Origin: Myxococcales bacterium
Lineage (GTDB): Bacteria > Myxococcota > UBA727 > VGSZ01
NCBI GenBank assembly: GCA_023248635.1
Contig: JAHFED010000035.1
Span: 1-62,300 of the forward strand
Direction: 5' to 3'
Length of the DNA stretch: 62,300 bases
Below, one piece after another: positions 551 through 57,375 of this stretch. The notes beneath the pieces are model-generated. The model saw only the letters and a list, made by a program, of their open reading frames with translations. It had not been told where the DNA came from and did no database searches. The position numbers were made by a program, and so were the translations under genes. Position 1 is the stretch's first letter. Each line of letters starts with the position of its first letter.

Positions 551-840
551 TTCAAGCGCTGAGGCGCCTGAAGTCTTGAACATCAAGACTTCAAGACGCG
601 CCAGCGTCTTGAACATCAAGACTTCAAGACGCGCCAGCGTCTTGAACATCAAGACTTCAAGACGCGCCAGCGTCTTGAACATCAAGACTTCAAGACGCGC
701 CAGCGTCTTGAACATCAAGACTTCGAGTCGCGCCGACGTCTTGATCCATCAGAACTTCAAGACGCGCCAGCGTCTTGAACATCCAAACTTCAAGACGCGC
801 CAGCGTCTTGAACATCAAGACTTCTCGAAGCATCGCGCCA
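551..840. repeat. Tandem array of 33-bp palindromic units
   Basis: The unit is a 24-bp palindrome with 10-bp arms TTCAAGACGC and GCGTCTTGAA around GCCA, followed by the 9-bp spacer CATCAAGAC. Good copies begin at 590, 623, 656, 689, 756 and 789. Degenerate copies begin near 551 and 722, and a truncated one near 822. The period is 33 bp, with one 34-bp step. Both strands stay open in some frames because 33 is a multiple of three, which creates spurious reading frames of 11-residue repeats. Single copies occur at 31439-31471 (inside metH), 57352-57375 (reverse orientation) and, degenerate, at 1407-1430 and 42511-42533. Confidence 0.92.
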
Positions 841-8109: not shown

Positions 8110-8405
8110 CTGTCGGCCTTCGCGCGGAAGCACGCGCTTCGCGCGGGAGCGAAGCGCAGAGAACGCCTTCGGCGCAGAACGCCTTCGGCGCAGAACGCCT
8201 TCGGCGCGAACGCCTTCGGCGCAGAACGCCTCCGGCGGGGCCAAAGGGTCCAGGGCAACCCGCTTTGGAATCCCTGCCCTTTGGCGATCGCGTCCCTCCG
8301 GCAGTTGCCCCGAAGGCTGTCATGGTTCGGGCCGCCTCGTGGCAAGTGCTCGAGGGAACGACGGCTTCGATGCCCCATCGCTTTGCGTTTGGGGAACAGG
8401 ACGCT
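8110..8405. repeat. Dispersed ~200-bp repeat with GCG-rich tandem flank, copy 1
   Basis: This intergenic stretch begins with short tandem blocks (AGAACGCCTTCGGCGC repeated several times at about 8158-8230). It continues into about 180 bp that match the reverse complement of 42245-42450, for example GAACGCCTCCGGCGGGGCC, GCCGCCTCGTGGCAAGTGCT and GCGTTTGGGGA. Identity is roughly 75-80% by eye, with one copy carrying about 25 extra bases. The element separates the divergent PilT-like and VWA genes. It has no clear gene. Confidence 0.8.
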
Positions 8406-14219: not shown

Positions 14220-17041
14220 GGCATCACATCTTCAGCGTCGCGTGGGCTCAGGCGCAGAGAGAGAGAACGCGAGCGCAGCACACCGGCGAGGCGCGCAAAG
14301 GGATCGCCCTGGCCCGGGGGAGGTGCGATCGCGAACAACTCATCGTCGACGCGCAGGCCGCCGTCGATCTCGAACTCGTTGGCGACGTTGGTGTCGCGCC
14401 CGACGATGGCCGGCTGCGGGTTGGTCACATGGGCGCCGTCGACCGCAACGAGGCAGCCCTCGAGCCGCGCCCGGGCGTTGTCGACCACGAGGGCATCGAC
14501 GTCGGCGAGGGCGATCAACAACCCAGCGACGGGCCGCCCGCTCTCCCGCAAGCGAAAGGTGGTCGGCGGCTTCAGCTCCCGCTCGAGGTCGAAATCGGCG
14601 ACGAGGCCGTCGATGTCGACGAGGTCACCCCGTGCGGGGCGCGCCTGCCCGGCGCCCGAAAAGACGAAGACGCAGCTGCCGTCATCACCCGCGAAGCCCG
14701 GCGACTCGGCTGCAAGGCGTACGGAGTAGCCATTGATGAAGACGCCAGTGACCTCCATGTCGACGAGGGTCACGGGTCGCTCGAAGGTCTGGGCCACATC
14801 CTTCACGGCGTAGACGCTGGCGAGGCAATGGTCGGGAGCCTCGGGCGCGGCGGCGCAATCGCAAGCGTCGCCGAAGCCGTCGCCGTCGCTGTCGGCTTGG
14901 TCCCGGTTGGCATTGGTGGCGCAGTTGTCCACCGGGTCAGGGACGCCGTCGTCGTCGACGTCGGCCGGCAAGGCCGCGCAGGCGCCGCGGTCGAAGGGGC
15001 AGGGATCGCAGGCGTCGCCAACGCCGTCGCCGTCGACGTCTGCTTGCGCGCCAACGTCCATGGGGCGCACCGGGTTGAACAGGCCCGGGCAGTCGTCAGA
15101 GACGTCGTCGACGCCGTCGCCATCGATGTCGCCGCCGCGGGGCACGCCGTCGTAACGAGAGGAGCCCGCGACGCTGTTCTCGGGCGCGGCACGCTGGGGC
15201 AGACAGCGCGGCTCCTCGGGAGGCTCCTCCCCGGGGCAGGTGAAGAGCGGGTAGGCGAGCGTGGGCACTTGCTCGACGGTGAAAGCGCTGAGCCCGAGAC
15301 AGACGGAGCGCTCTTCGCCACACACCGACAAGGGCGCGCAGCCCGCGACCAGAGCATCGACGGCGTCCGGCAGGCCCACCAGGGGTTGGCCATGCACGAG
15401 CACGAGCAGCACATCATCGACGTCGGCGCCCACCACCGAGCTGTAGGGCCCCCGCTCGTCCTGGGCGTAGACGGCGATGTCGCCGAGGTGGCCCGGGACG
15501 AGGGAGCCCAGCCGCCCAGCGGGGTCGACGACGGCGACGTTCTCGGTGGCCATGCGCCACAGCTCCTGGCGCGAGAAGGTGTCGGCGAGGTAGGTGTCGT
15601 CGACTGCGTCGGCGCAGCGCAGCTCGCGCAGGAGGTTCATGGACCCGCTCACGATCCAGTCGGTGCCGATCAAGAGCGGCACGCCGAGGTTCTTCAACAG
15701 GCGCGCGGGTACGACGTCGCCGTAGAGGTCGAGGGACGAGCGCGGCGACCACACCACTGCCGCGCCCGTGCGCGCGATGCGGAAGGCCCCCAGGGCGTCG
15801 ACGGCGACGAGCTCTTGTACCGCCATGCCAGGGGCGACGTAGTCGACGGCACCGCCCGTCAGGCAGTCCAGCTCGTTGGCAGCCTCGCCATCGATGCCCG
15901 GGGCGATGTGCGCGGCGGTCGGTGTCGTGATCGCCGCGGGCAGCGCGTCGTAGGCGCAGCCCGCGCTCAGGAGCTTCGGCACGGCGTCGTTCTGGTCACC
16001 GAGTGGAAAGACCTCGGCATCAATGCGCGTGAGACCGGCGAAGCCCGCATCGCCGCCGTCGTCGAGGTTGCGCAGCAGGCCTGTGCTCTGCGCGCCGCCG
16101 ATCAGCGACGTCTCACCAGCGAGCGCATGGCGCAGCTCCGCCCCGGCGCGCAGGGCTGTCGAGCCGGACTGGAAGGTGAGGGGGGGGTGAGCACGCGTGC
16201 CTTTGCGCCAATCGTGGCGGTGTTCCCAGCGCTGCTCGTCGTCGACGGCATCGTTGGCCGGGTCTGCGCGCCACGGCACACCGGTGCTGAACGCGAGGTG
16301 TTCATGCGCGTTGATCAGGCCCGGCGAGATCACCGCGGCACCGCAGCGCACGTGGGGCGCCGTGCCCGTGGAGCAGCCGCAGCCGGCGCACACGATCAGA
16401 CCATTGTTGTCGATGACGACGGTGCCGCCGACGACGATGCCATCGCCAAAGAGCAAGGTGCCCGACAGGGCCACGCTGTTGCCGTCGCGATCGCCCTCAT
16501 CGACGTCGCAGCCGCGCGCGGGTCCGGGCGGCGCCCCGCTGCAGACCTCGATGGTGAAGTCGCCCTCGTTGCCCACTTCTCCTTCTCCCTCCCCTTCTCC
16601 TTCTCCCTCTCCTTCTCCCTCTCCTTCTCCCTCTCCTTCTCCTTCTCCTTCTCCCTCCCCTTCTCCCTCCCCTTCTCCCTCCCCTTCACCTTCTCCTTCT
16701 CCGACGTCGCCTTCGCCCTCGCCCTCGTCGCCCTCGCCCTCGTCGCCCTCGCCCTCGCCTACGTCGCCCTCGCCCTCGCCCTCGCCCTCGCCTTCTCCGA
16801 CGTCGCCTTCACCCTCGCCGACGTCGCCTTCGCCTTCACCCTCGCCGACGTCGCCTTCGCCTTCCCCTGCTGCCTCGCCTTCTCCTTCTTCGCCCTCGGC
16901 AGGCTCACACACGCTTGCGCGGCAGCGCAGGAGCGGGCCGCAGTCGTCGTCGCTCACGCAGCTGCGACCCTCGAGCGTGAGGGGGGCGCGCGCGAGGAAG
17001 CACGACGTGAGCATGAGAGCGCCGAGAACGACGACGCGCAT
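14216..17041 (-). CDS. Secreted amidohydrolase-like lipoprotein with Gly-Glu linker and TSP3 repeats
   Basis: A 941-residue protein. The ATG at 17041 shares its A with the upstream TGA stop. The lipobox is LTSC (Cys14). Residues ~50-160 are a Gly-Glu linker. An amidohydrolase-superfamily domain follows, with the metal motif NAHEH, a [10 protein letters not shown] segment and [16 protein letters not shown]. Then come calcium-binding thrombospondin-type-3-like repeats ([41 protein letters not shown]) and a C-terminal beta-rich domain. Relatives usually carry HIAEG and a later His; here I read HIAPG and VAPGM, so catalysis may be impaired. It sits in an operon after the FlgO/TolB-N-like gene. 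The likely location is the outer surface. Confidence 0.8.
16577..16885 (-). repeat. Gly-Glu coding repeat
   Basis: Hexanucleotide repeats of the GAGGGC/GAAGGG type encode about 100 residues of alternating Gly-Glu with occasional Asp-Val. The stretch links the signal-proximal Cys cluster to the amidohydrolase-like domain. A similar repeat is present at 57514-57990. Confidence 0.9.
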
Positions 17042-29110: not shown

Positions 29111-32100
29111 ATGATCACCAAGCCCCGCCTGACAGCATCTGATCTGCGCGACCTCTTGGCCACGCGCATCGTGGTCTTCGACGGCGCCATGGGCACGCAG
29201 CTGCAGAACCGCAAGCTGGTCGCCGACGACTTCGGCGGCGAAGCCCTGGCCGGCTGCAACGAGCACCTGGTGCTCACCCGTCCCGACGTCATCGCCGACG
29301 TGCACCGCGCCTATTTCAAGGCCGGCGCCGACTTCGTCGAGACCGACTCCTTTGGCAGCACGCCCCTGGTGCTCGATGAATACGGCCTGGGGGCAAAGGC
29401 CCTCGAGCTCAACGAAGCCGCCGCCCGCATCGCCCGCGCCGTCTCGTTGGAATTCACCGACAAGCCCCGCTTCGTCGCCGGCAGCATGGGTCCGACGACC
29501 CGCGCTCTTTCGGTGACGGGGGGCCTCAGCTTCGACGCGCTGGTGCAGCACTACGCGGTCCAGGCCGAGGGCTTGCTTCGCGGTGGCGCCGACGTCTTGT
29601 TGCTCGAAACCAGCCTCGACACCATGAACGTAAAAGCAGGGCTCATCGGCATCGAGCAGGCCGAACAGAAACTGGGTCTTGTCATCCCTGTGATGATCTC
29701 TTGTACCATCGAGAGCACCGGCACCATGCTCGCCGGTCAAGGCGCCGAGAGCTTCCACGTCTCCGTCGAGCACGCCAGCCGACGCAAAGGCGGGCTCATG
29801 ACCGTGGGCATCAACTGCGCGACGGGCCCCGATCCCATGGCCGACCACATCCGCGCGCTCGCCGAGCTGTCGCCCTTTGGCATCTCCTGTATGCCCAATG
29901 CCGGGCTGCCAGATGAAGACGGCAAATACGGCGAAACACCCGAATCACTCGCACGCAAATTGGGGCGCTTCTGCGACAATCATTTCCTCAACGTCGTCGG
30001 CGGCTGCTGCGGCACCACCCCGGCGCACATCGAGGCCATCACCAGCATGGCCAACGCCCACAAACCGCGTGCCCCCAAAGAGCGGCTGCGGCCCATGGTG
30101 TCAGGCGTCGACTTCTTGGACCTCGAAGACGTCACCCCCATCATCGTCGGCGAACGCACCAACGTCATCGGCAGCCGGGCCTTCAAGCGCCTGGTGGTCG
30201 AGGGTAAATGGGAAGAAGCAGCCGAGATCGGTCGCAAGCAGGTGAGAAACGGCGCCCACATCGTCGACGTCTGCCTGGCCAATCCCGATCGCGACGAGAA
30301 GACCGACATCATCGCCTTCCTCGAGCAGCTCACCAAGAAGGTGAAGGCTCCCTTGATGATCGACTCCACCGACGCCGAGGTGCTCGAAGAGGCCCTCAAG
30401 CGCTGTCAGGGCAAGGCGGTGGTGAACTCCATCAATCTCGAGGATGGGCGCGAGCGCTTCGACGACGTCGTCCCCCTCTTGCACCGCTACGGCGCCGCCG
30501 TCGTCGTCGGCTGCATCGACGAAGATCCGGTGCAGGGCATGGCCGTGACGCGCGCGCGCAAGCTCGCGGTGGCCGAGCGCAGCCACGCCCTGCTCACCGG
30601 TGAATACGGCGTCTCCGAAGACGACATCATCTTTGATCCATTGGTTTTTCCCTGCGGGACCGGCGATCAACAATATATCGGCTCTGCCGCAGAAACCATT
30701 GAAGGCGTGAGAATGATCAAGCAGCGCTTTCCGCGCTGTCGCACCATCTTGGGCATCTCAAACGTGAGCTTCGGCCTGCCCGAGGCCGGACGTGAAGCAC
30801 TCAACACGGTTTTTCTGCACAAGAATTTCGAGGCCGGCCTCGACATGGCCATCGTCAACGCCGAGAAGCTCGAGCGCATCACCCACATCGACGCCACAAC
30901 CATTGGCGTGTGTGAGCGCCTGTTGCTCGCCAATGCCGGAGCCTACGACGCAGCCCTGATCGCCTTCACCGAGCACTTCCGCGGGGTCGATGTCAAAAAG
31001 AGCGCGGGGCGCGATCTCTCTCTCCCCGTCGACGAACGTCTGCAGAAGAACGTCATCGAGGGCAGCAAAGAGGGGCTGGTCGACGACCTCGAAGAGGTGC
31101 GCAAGACGACGCTGCCGCTGGACATCATCAACGGCCCCCTCATGAAGGGCATGAGCGAGGTCGGCCGCCTCTTCGGCAACAACCAGCTCATCGTCGCCGA
31201 AGTGCTGCAGTCCGCCGAGGTCATGAAGGCCGCGGTGTCCCATCTCGAAAAATTCATGAGCAAAACCGAGGGTGCGGCCAAAGCCAAGATGCTCTTGGCC
31301 ACCGTCAAAGGGGACGTTCACGACATCGGTAAAAATCTCGTCGACATCATCTTGTCCAACAATGGATTCGAGGTCGTCAACCTTGGCATCAAGGTCGCCC
31401 CCGCCGCCCTCATCGCCGCCGTGAAGCAACACGCGCCAGACTTCAAGACGCGCCAGCGTCTTGAACATCAACTCTGTATCGGGCTCTCTGGCCTCTTGGT
31501 GAAGAGCGCGCAGGAGATGGTGGCCACTGCCGAAGAGCTCAAGGCCGCCGACATCGATCTGCCCATCTTCGTCGGGGGCGCCGCCCTTACCGAGCGCTTC
31601 ACCTATGGCCGCATCAAGAAGGCCTATGAGGGAGAAGGCCGGGCCGCCGTCGTTCTCTACGCCCGCGATGCCATGACCGGCCTCGACCTCGCCAACCGGC
31701 TCTTCGACGACAGCAAGCGCCCTGAGCTGATGCTCCATCTCGAGAAAAAGCGCGCTGATGCCACTGCTGTGGTGGTGCCGTCGACGTCGAATCCTCCCCT
31801 GCCCGGCGCTCCCACCGAGCTGGTGATGGGTTGGACCCACGAGATCCACCAGCCCCCCGACACCCGACTGCACGTGCTCGACGACGTCCCCGTCGAAACG
31901 CTGTGGCCCTACATCAACCCCATGATGCTCTACGCCCGCCACCTCGGGCTCAAGGGCCGCGTCGACGATCTCGTGGCCAAGGGCGACAAGAAAGCCATCG
32001 AGCTCAAGCGCCTGGTGAAGGGCGTCGAAGACGAGGTGCTCGCCAAGAACCAATTGCGCGCCCGCTGCTTGTGGCGCTTCTTTCGCGCTGCGCGTCCTGA

Positions 32101-32659
32101 CGGCGAAGACGCCATCGCTTTCTTCGACGGCGACGTCGAGGCTGCCCGCATCGCTTTTCCGCGCCAGGCCGCCGGCGAGCGACGCTGCATCGCCGATCTC
32201 GTGCCCGCACTCTCGTCGGGCAAGCGCGATCACGTCGCCCTCTTTGTGACCTCGTGCCAGGGACGCACGGCGCCGATGCGCGCTCTCGCCGACCAACTGA
32301 AGGAAGAGGGCTCCTACGTGAAGATGCACGCGTTGCAGGCCCTCGCCATCGAGACCGCTGAGGCCCTCGCCGAGTGGGTGCACGAGAGCCTGCGCAAGAG
32401 CTGGGGCATCGGTGATGCGGCGTCGACGACGAAGCAGGATTTGTTTCAAGCCCACTACCGAGGTCGCCGCTACTCCTTTGGCTATCCCGCCTGCCCCCGC
32501 CTCGAAGATCAGGCGACGCTGTGGCAGCTGCTCGGGCCGCACAAACACATCGGCGTCGAGCTGACCGAGGGATTCATGATGGAGCCCGAAGCCAGCGTTT
32601 CGGCGCTCGTGTTCCAACACCCCCAGGCCGCGTACTTCTCCGTCGGCGGCGAAGGCTGA
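29111..32659 (+). CDS. metH: Cobalamin-dependent methionine synthase with an inserted 11-residue repeat
   Basis: A 1182-residue four-module enzyme that transfers methyl from methyl-tetrahydrofolate to homocysteine. The homocysteine domain starts at DGAMGTQLQ and holds the zinc-ligand Cys pair GGCCGTTPAH. The pterin domain (VGERTNVIGSRAFKRLV) is followed by the cobalamin domain with the lower-ligand motif DVHDIGKNLV. The C-terminal activation domain ends YFSVGGEG. Family members have one residue between PD and IGLSGL; here twelve are present (FKTRQRLEHQLC), a net gain of 11 residues or 33 nt, and the DNA is one copy of the palindromic repeat. The frame is intact, so function is probably retained. 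No cobalamin riboswitch could fit upstream. Confidence 0.95.
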   Translation: MITKPRLTASDLRDLLATRIVVFDGAMGTQLQNRKLVADDFGGEALAGCNEHLVLTRPDVIADVHRAYFKAGADFVETDSFGSTPLVLDEYGLGAKALELNEAAARIARAVSLEFTDKPRFVAGSMGPTTRALSVTGGLSFDALVQHYAVQAEGLLRGGADVLLLETSLDTMNVKAGLIGIEQAEQKLGLVIPVMISCTIESTGTMLAGQGAESFHVSVEHASRRKGGLMTVGINCATGPDPMADHIRALAELSPFGISCMPNAGLPDEDGKYGETPESLARKLGRFCDNHFLNVVGGCCGTTPAHIEAITSMANAHKPRAPKERLRPMVSGVDFLDLEDVTPIIVGERTNVIGSRAFKRLVVEGKWEEAAEIGRKQVRNGAHIVDVCLANPDRDEKTDIIAFLEQLTKKVKAPLMIDSTDAEVLEEALKRCQGKAVVNSINLEDGRERFDDVVPLLHRYGAAVVVGCIDEDPVQGMAVTRARKLAVAERSHALLTGEYGVSEDDIIFDPLVFPCGTGDQQYIGSAAETIEGVRMIKQRFPRCRTILGISNVSFGLPEAGREALNTVFLHKNFEAGLDMAIVNAEKLERITHIDATTIGVCERLLLANAGAYDAALIAFTEHFRGVDVKKSAGRDLSLPVDERLQKNVIEGSKEGLVDDLEEVRKTTLPLDIINGPLMKGMSEVGRLFGNNQLIVAEVLQSAEVMKAAVSHLEKFMSKTEGAAKAKMLLATVKGDVHDIGKNLVDIILSNNGFEVVNLGIKVAPAALIAAVKQHAPDFKTRQRLEHQLCIGLSGLLVKSAQEMVATAEELKAADIDLPIFVGGAALTERFTYGRIKKAYEGEGRAAVVLYARDAMTGLDLANRLFDDSKRPELMLHLEKKRADATAVVVPSTSNPPLPGAPTELVMGWTHEIHQPPDTRLHVLDDVPVETLWPYINPMMLYARHLGLKGRVDDLVAKGDKKAIELKRLVKGVEDEVLAKNQLRARCLWRFFRAARPDGEDAIAFFDGDVEAARIAFPRQAAGERRCIADLVPALSSGKRDHVALFVTSCQGRTAPMRALADQLKEEGSYVKMHALQALAIETAEALAEWVHESLRKSWGIGDAASTTKQDLFQAHYRGRRYSFGYPACPRLEDQATLWQLLGPHKHIGVELTEGFMMEPEASVSALVFQHPQAAYFSVGGEG
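31439..31471. repeat. Single 33-bp palindromic unit inside metH
   Basis: The 24-bp palindrome at 31442-31465 is identical to the array consensus (arms TTCAAGACGC and GCGTCTTGAA, loop GCCA), and the flanks GAC and CATCAA are also those of the array unit. It encodes DFKTRQRLEHQ in the metH frame, just before the conserved IGLSGL strand of the cobalamin-binding Rossmann fold. Confidence 0.93.
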
Positions 32660-52240: not shown

Positions 52241-52393
52241 CGCCAGACGATACCTCTGAGCGTCGGTGGGCGCGATCATCGTGCCGAAGTGTGTTTGAGC
52301 CGCGCCGACGGCTCAAAGCGCGGCAAGGCGCTGCGCGCCTGGCGTGTCGGCAAGCCCCGCTTTTCTTTTTCCGCCAATGCGTGACGACGACGA

Positions 52394-57156: not shown

Positions 57157-57351
57157 CCGACGCAGCGCTCGCGCCGAGGAGTCAACGACGAGGTCATGGG
57201 GGGCCTGGTGTGCGTCGAGGTGTGGGAGCGCGCGGCCCCATCGGCGTGGTGGCCGATACCTCGTACTGCCGCGGGAGGCAGTCCCATCGTCGGAAACAGC
57301 GAGAGGCGTGCCTCCTGCTTGGCACGGCGCCGGAGGATGAAGTTCTGCTGG

Positions 57352-57375
57352 TTCAAGACGCTGGCGCGTCTTGAA
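57352..57375. repeat. Single palindromic unit upstream of the LRR-like lipoprotein
   Basis: The 24-bp palindrome is present in reverse orientation relative to the array (arms TTCAAGACGC and GCGTCTTGAA around TGGC). It ends 57 bp before the ATG at 57433, so it lies in the 5' untranslated or promoter region. The rest of 57157-57430 holds no supported gene. Confidence 0.85.

Follow-up and report, generated by a model that had tools for sequence, protein, structure and literature searches.

The tandem array of short palindromes near the left end of a 62,300-nucleotide stretch of Myxococcales DNA, here called the window, probably consists of copies of a REP-like mobile element that is non-autonomous and is inserted in single units by a hairpin-recognising activity. 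We put the probability of this reading at about 0.65. The genome (6.53 Mb in 135 contigs) is a fragmented assembly of 96.7% completeness. Besides genome-wide pattern searches, 1.846 Mb (28% of the genome, 101 sequences) were read base by base; densities in this sample are biased, since it was partly picked around copies, whereas contig C9 (400 kb) was covered from end to end.

The array and its repeat unit

A tandem palindromic array with degenerate units had been predicted at 551-840. It is real: TRF reports a repeat at 573-824 with period 33, 7.6 copies and 91% matches, and mapping of the units agrees. The spacing had been called strictly 33 bp. This holds for most steps between the hairpins at 590-812 (33, 33, 33, 33, 34, 33) but not for that from 722 to 756, which measures 34 bp, and 34-bp units exist. 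The following features of the window belong to the repeats or to the gene that carries one.

551-572, + strand: leading hairpin, degenerate, TTCAAGCGC-TGAG-GCGCCTGAA, read from the sequence
573-821, + strand: tandem array of family A units, period 33 with one step of 34
590-613, + strand: hairpin unit 1, exact (pattern search)
623-646, + strand: hairpin unit 2, exact (pattern search)
656-679, + strand: hairpin unit 3, exact (pattern search)
689-712, + strand: hairpin unit 4, exact (pattern search)
722-745, + strand: hairpin unit 5, degenerate, 5 mismatches (core search)
756-779, + strand: hairpin unit 6, exact (pattern search)
789-812, + strand: hairpin unit 7, exact, followed by the tail CATCAAGAC at 813-821 (pattern search)
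1407-1430, + strand: single hairpin, degenerate, located between rnr and the gene at 977-1378 (core and model searches)
29111-32659, + strand: metH, cobalamin-dependent methionine synthase, with a unit in the B12-binding domain
31442-31474, + strand: single 33-bp unit (hairpin 31442-31465 plus tail), in frame in metH, reading FKTRQRLEHQL
52294-52317, + strand: weak family-C-like hairpin, 19.9 bits, E 0.005 (model search)
57342-57375, - strand: single 34-bp unit, hairpin 57352-57375, tail CCAGCAGAAC
59876-59952, - strand: another interspersed repeat with the empty target site ...GAGCGAAC|TTCAACTGGACTTGGG

The array can be folded in two phases. The original prediction drew a 10-bp-stem hairpin around CATCAAGAC (GTCTTGAA-CATC...), which is present in the array but is not conserved among dispersed single copies. 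These keep only the 24-bp hairpin TTCAAGACGC-GCCA-GCGTCTTGAA, and the first phase was rejected as the unit for this reason. Genome-wide, the GCCA phase has 459 matches at up to 3 mismatches (243 on the + and 216 on the - strand) as compared to 157 for the other; reversed-pattern controls gave none for either. With 459 matches the unit is anything but absent from the rest of the genome, and a dispersed palindromic element was rightly suspected; the number of units per site varies as well. Among the four single copies named in the window, those at 31442-31465 (+ strand) and 57352-57375 (- strand) are exact and that at 1407-1430 has 3 mismatches, while 42511-42533 is found neither among the cores with up to 6 mismatches nor among model matches up to E=1.

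In the 101 sequences, the core yields 329 matches at up to 6 mismatches; five shuffled-stem controls, run on 40 of these sequences, together yield one. The 329 cores form 144 clusters, of which 74 contain one unit and 70 are arrays with at most 9 units, with cores spaced 33 bp apart in 102 cases and 34 bp in 59. Aligning the 109 clusters whose best core has no more than 3 mismatches, on one strand only, reveals that conservation begins abruptly at TTCAA on the left and ends on the right after a tail of 9 or 10 nt (CATCCAAAC, CCATCAGAAC and others) plus TTCA(A), with background beyond the unit on both sides; tails were surveyed in 80 clusters, and 17 without a recognisable tail end were set aside. 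These sharp limits define the unit as hairpin plus tail, 33 or 34 bp long, and an array as n units followed by TTCA(A). As single-stranded DNA the unit has a folding energy of about -11 kcal/mol (z about -6).

Other repeats lie in the window. A 76-bp direct repeat in two copies (393-546) is part of a large composite interspersed palindromic repeat, GATCCCCGATCTC...GGGGAT, the 20-mer of which occurs in 42 copies in the 1.846-Mb sample. Short tandem palindromes at 8160-8237 and 42445-42507 (AGAACGCCTTCGGCGC, GCGTTCTTCCGCGCGAAGC) possibly represent another hairpin family, and low-complexity tandem repeats occupy predicted coding regions at 16576-16888 (periods 6-27 bp) and 57511-57994 (6-90 bp).

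A constant loop on changing stems

A k-mer census revealed additional interspersed palindromes in the sample. Among 374 perfect hairpins with a 9-bp stem and a 4-nt loop in the 1.846 Mb, the loop is GCCA in 284, and the six anagram loops of GCCA account for 0-2 perfect hairpins each. The GCCA hairpins fall mainly into four stem families, A (179), B (TTCATCGCC, 54), C (TTTGAGCCGT, 27) and D (TTTGCGCCGT, 20). Genome-wide, at the threshold used for A, C/D have 375 matches and B 249, the controls none. Families B, C and D are likewise arranged head to tail with a period of 33-35 bp, and mixed arrays exist, e.g. C followed by B in L104. The loop is 4 nt long, the stems 9 or 10 bp; they differ between families but compensate. 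In a set of 35 distinct hairpins, both sides are altered at 8 of the 9 stem pairs, with a covariation score of 0.80 as compared to 0.23 after shuffling; as these hairpins were chosen for good pairing, the percentage paired is inflated, the variety of stems around one loop is not. At two loci (L137:226-438 and L102:11385-11532) the 33-bp GCCA hairpins of family B alternate with a 30-bp hairpin, AATTCACCGACA-CGCGAAGCGC-TGTCGGTG, with a period of 63 bp.

The 25-mer of family A was found in 1 of 39 genomes, this one, and in none of 38 relatives; the A hairpin occurs in 1 of 4 genomes of the family, and the named genomes of GTDB gave no match to the 25-mer. The sister species of the same genus (G001) holds 24 matches to a B-like pattern, which has none in G002 and G003, and carries arrays of TTCTTCGGC-GCCA-GCCGAAGAA in 32-bp steps, that is, own stems with the same loop. 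A covariance model matched at least 23 of 195 genomes of the phylum, with 41 candidates scored per genome, so that counts are lower bounds: at least 55 in this genome, at least 6 in G182, at least 5 in the sister species, and at least one or two in each of the remaining genomes, which may be chance. G182, from another family of the phylum, may represent one more lineage that carries elements of this kind. Viral contigs, phages and plasmids gave no match, and four loci searched against Rfam gave nothing above the gathering threshold. Among the open-licence papers listed by our literature searches, none describes a GCCA-loop hairpin family.

Insertion sites and copies within genes

One host repeat allows filled and empty sites to be compared, and the DNA-level evidence for empty sites rests on it. 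The repeat, ending ...GAGCGAAC|TTCAACTGGACTTGGG, has 27 matches in the genome, 23 of which could be scored (of the other four, one lies at the end of a contig, one diverges on its left side and two are repeat views of scored loci). In 18 the site is empty, as in the copy at 59876-59952 of the window; three contain exactly 33 bp, i.e. one unit, one contains 165 bp (5x33), and one is a deletion scar that holds ATCCAAAC only, consistent with deletion of the hairpin between GAAC repeats. The insertion is exactly 33 bp, and the shared AACTTCAA can be read either as element sequence or as target duplication, the latter being expected, along with terminal inverted repeats, of a MITE of a DDE transposase. 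Some of the 18 empty sites could also be losses, because precise deletion between the shared AACTTCAA repeats empties the site too. The occupied copies lie in differing versions of the host repeat, possibly reflecting several insertions, though a single insertion may also have been copied afterwards. A two-flank search for further empty sites in all GCCA families returned 28 rows; those inspected were overlaps within arrays, and none was used.

The flanks that would have met before insertion preferably join as C|T, in most cases ahead of TTCAA. C|T is found in 51 of 108 A clusters (108 of the 109 aligned) against 5.8 expected, a count that degenerate half units on the left may inflate.

The clusters avoid genes. 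For 131 of the 144 (up to 4 mismatches; genes from a simple in-house gene caller), 95 are wholly intergenic, 21 lie across a gene end, 9 inside genes and 6 at sequence edges, whereas random placement would put about 109 inside genes. It had been proposed that a length of 33 bp with open frames would permit life within genes, and the in-frame copy in metH bears this out. It begins at 31442 and encodes FKTRQRLEHQL, 11 residues that remain unmatched in phmmer alignments to the MetH chains 8ssc and 8g3h, which we take to be of the Thermus type. In HflX (L122), four units stand in frame in a region that homologues leave uncovered. The case of E1 dehydrogenase (E1-alpha, L133) is not clean, its net excess over homologues being about 21-22 residues instead of 11. 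Leaving out one copy at a gene end, 6 of 8 intragenic copies use the same FKTRQRLEHQ-like frame out of four open frames (binomial 0.004). The tails in genes have nine nt in 8 cases, ten in none, with one undecided, as compared to 67, 34 and 6 outside (Fisher p 0.055), which may hint at frame-saving tails being favoured inside genes.

How the units may spread

The reading we prefer, a REP-like element moving as single units, can be put in steps. The unit is one hairpin (TT-stem-GCCA-stem'-AA) to which a tail is joined; the tail has about 9-11 nt and ends in AC, and the whole measures 32-35 bp. A hairpin-recognising activity, perhaps with single-strand (HUH/Y1-like) chemistry, would read the shape and the GCCA loop but not the stem sequence and would insert a single unit exactly at C|T, preferably C|TTCAA, without longer target duplication. 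New units would stack head to tail because each again starts with TTCAA. Later changes to arrays would be local, namely gain and loss of units and homogenisation, for which slippage is the most likely cause; the hairpin could also be lost between short direct repeats.

IS200/IS605-derived elements offer a likeness, as they have a hairpin and insert exactly beside a short target without duplication. Differences are that here no Y1 gene was found and that the unit has one hairpin only; moreover, guide complementarity, as outlined in PMC8266576, is not recognised. The resemblance to the TnpAREP cut at C|T does not by itself prove Y1 chemistry, and a guide of the GTAG type was not found.

A less probable but still serious explanation, to which we give perhaps one chance in a handful, is that these are classical REPs or REPINs moved by a REP-associated tyrosine transposase (RAYT) that is merely missing from the 96.7%-complete assembly. 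As described in PMC3733652, PMC8266576 and PMC3116915, GTAG-tagged REPs resemble our units as hairpins of 20-40 bp in hundreds of copies, mostly intergenic and some intragenic; the TnpAREP proteins of E. coli and S. maltophilia are reported to cut at C|T (PMC8266576), as at our junction, and in some REP groups the loop can matter for recognition. Family B even holds GTAG in its tail CCTGTAGAC, though variably (e.g. CCTGTGGAC, CCTTAGAC), and fragmented assemblies often lose multi-copy genes. Against this, GTAG is found at the hairpin foot in none of A, C and D, and inverted pairs are not the main arrangement: neighbouring A copies are ++ in 92, -- in 76, +- in 12 and -+ in 5 cases, i.e. 168 on the same strand and 17 on opposite strands, whereas REPs pair head to head. 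The REPIN model of PMC3116915 ascribes mobility to the inverted pair; the sites described here are occupied by single units, inserted alone, and the loop is constant while the stem changes. The RAYT for which the original prediction had proposed a search did not turn up either. Y1_Tnp (PF01797) has no match in this genome (one candidate scored, a result that at 96.7% completeness is not final), and one weak match each in G001 and G003.

Other candidates for the enzyme gave no lead. The genome has 11 tyrosine recombinases, no special excess over 5, 6 and 12 in relatives, and repeated transposase genes at 85% identity or more over 60% of the length were not found in the 28% of the genome read; a collapsed multi-copy gene might be missing from the fragmented assembly. 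The moving enzyme may lie in the unassembled part, have diverged beyond recognition or have been lost.

We consider it very unlikely that the palindrome is under selection as a site with a regulatory or structural role, either a transcription terminator or a palindrome that a nucleoid or regulatory protein binds, and persists by function and not by mobility. The hairpin is stable and its location intergenic, as such a site would be. Yet the intergenic clusters lie between codirectional (51), divergent (26) and convergent genes (18) close to the available intergenic space, and 29 are oriented opposite to and 22 along the genes; the lack of a marked convergent preference and of a clear orientation bias argues against terminators and for tolerated insertion. 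In addition, stems vary between families while pairing persists, unlike a sequence-specific site, A is missing from all 38 relatives, and the empty sites are exact.

Less probable still is pure replication slippage with segmental duplication, by which units would multiply locally and be scattered with larger segments. Several arrays do share flanks because they lie inside another repeat. Tails are identical in 53% of pairs within arrays but in 10% between arrays (32 arrays of at least 3 units each), a count reached in 0 of 2000 permutations. It would seem from this that arrays, once seeded, expand locally. Against slippage as the whole explanation, 144 clusters are spread over 1.846 Mb, similarity stops at the unit ends, flanks are unrelated at most sites, and one unit sits inside metH. 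The array in the window, thought to be a possible source of the element, did not emerge as such but as one of many arrays with locally homogenised tails.

The only reverse transcriptase of the genome is of retron type XIII (PADLOC RT_XIII; L190:1225-2694, - strand, contig C11) and lies amid three ncRNA-like copies whose conserved parts match while their long inverted stems differ, the first holding an A-type hairpin with the loop TTGC. That it copied the hairpin into cDNA which was then inserted is scarcely credible, given that at this copy density chance could well place one hairpin there (a rough estimate), that its loop is TTGC and that the reverse transcriptase shows no link to other copies.

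We file the REP-like element in neither tagged superfamily. PMC3733652 divides REPs, mostly single or inverted, into a GTAG- and a CGTC-tagged superfamily, the latter without known transposase. Our units share with CGTC REPs a 4-nt loop, stems of similar length, a short 3' tail (some start with CCA) and the lack of a known dedicated transposase; their 4-nt loop and 9-10-bp stems are at or just above the CGTC range (4-5 nt, 8-9 bp). They differ in that a CGTC (or TGTC/CCTC) tag beside the stem was not found and stems start with TT instead of AT; also, CGTC families seldom form clusters and have a negligible share of head-to-tail dimers (PMC3733652), whereas here both are the rule. Functioning like REPs, the units are best filed as a REP-like variant tagged by its loop. 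A tentative idea, which we hold to be somewhat doubtful, is that they form a class of mobile DNA of their own, in which single hairpins are recognised through their invariant GCCA loop and not through a tag at the foot, and stems are free to vary provided that they pair. Such hairpins would be moved singly by an enzyme different from the known RAYTs and could colonise proteins in frame.

Like Rickettsia palindromic elements, the units are palindromes in frame inside unrelated protein genes; this likeness is by description (PMC10969869), and those elements are about 150 bp long while ours have 32-35 bp, are mostly intergenic and often tandem. Rickettsia being the first, this would be the second setting where conserved enzymes gain peptides from tiny palindromes. 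How REP-type repeats without transposase, the CGTC class of PMC3733652, spread is an open question. Hundreds of near-identical units, the same site empty and filled, a scar, and the same loop on other stems in the sister species make it testable here, as the question of what reads the GCCA loop and joins at C|T.
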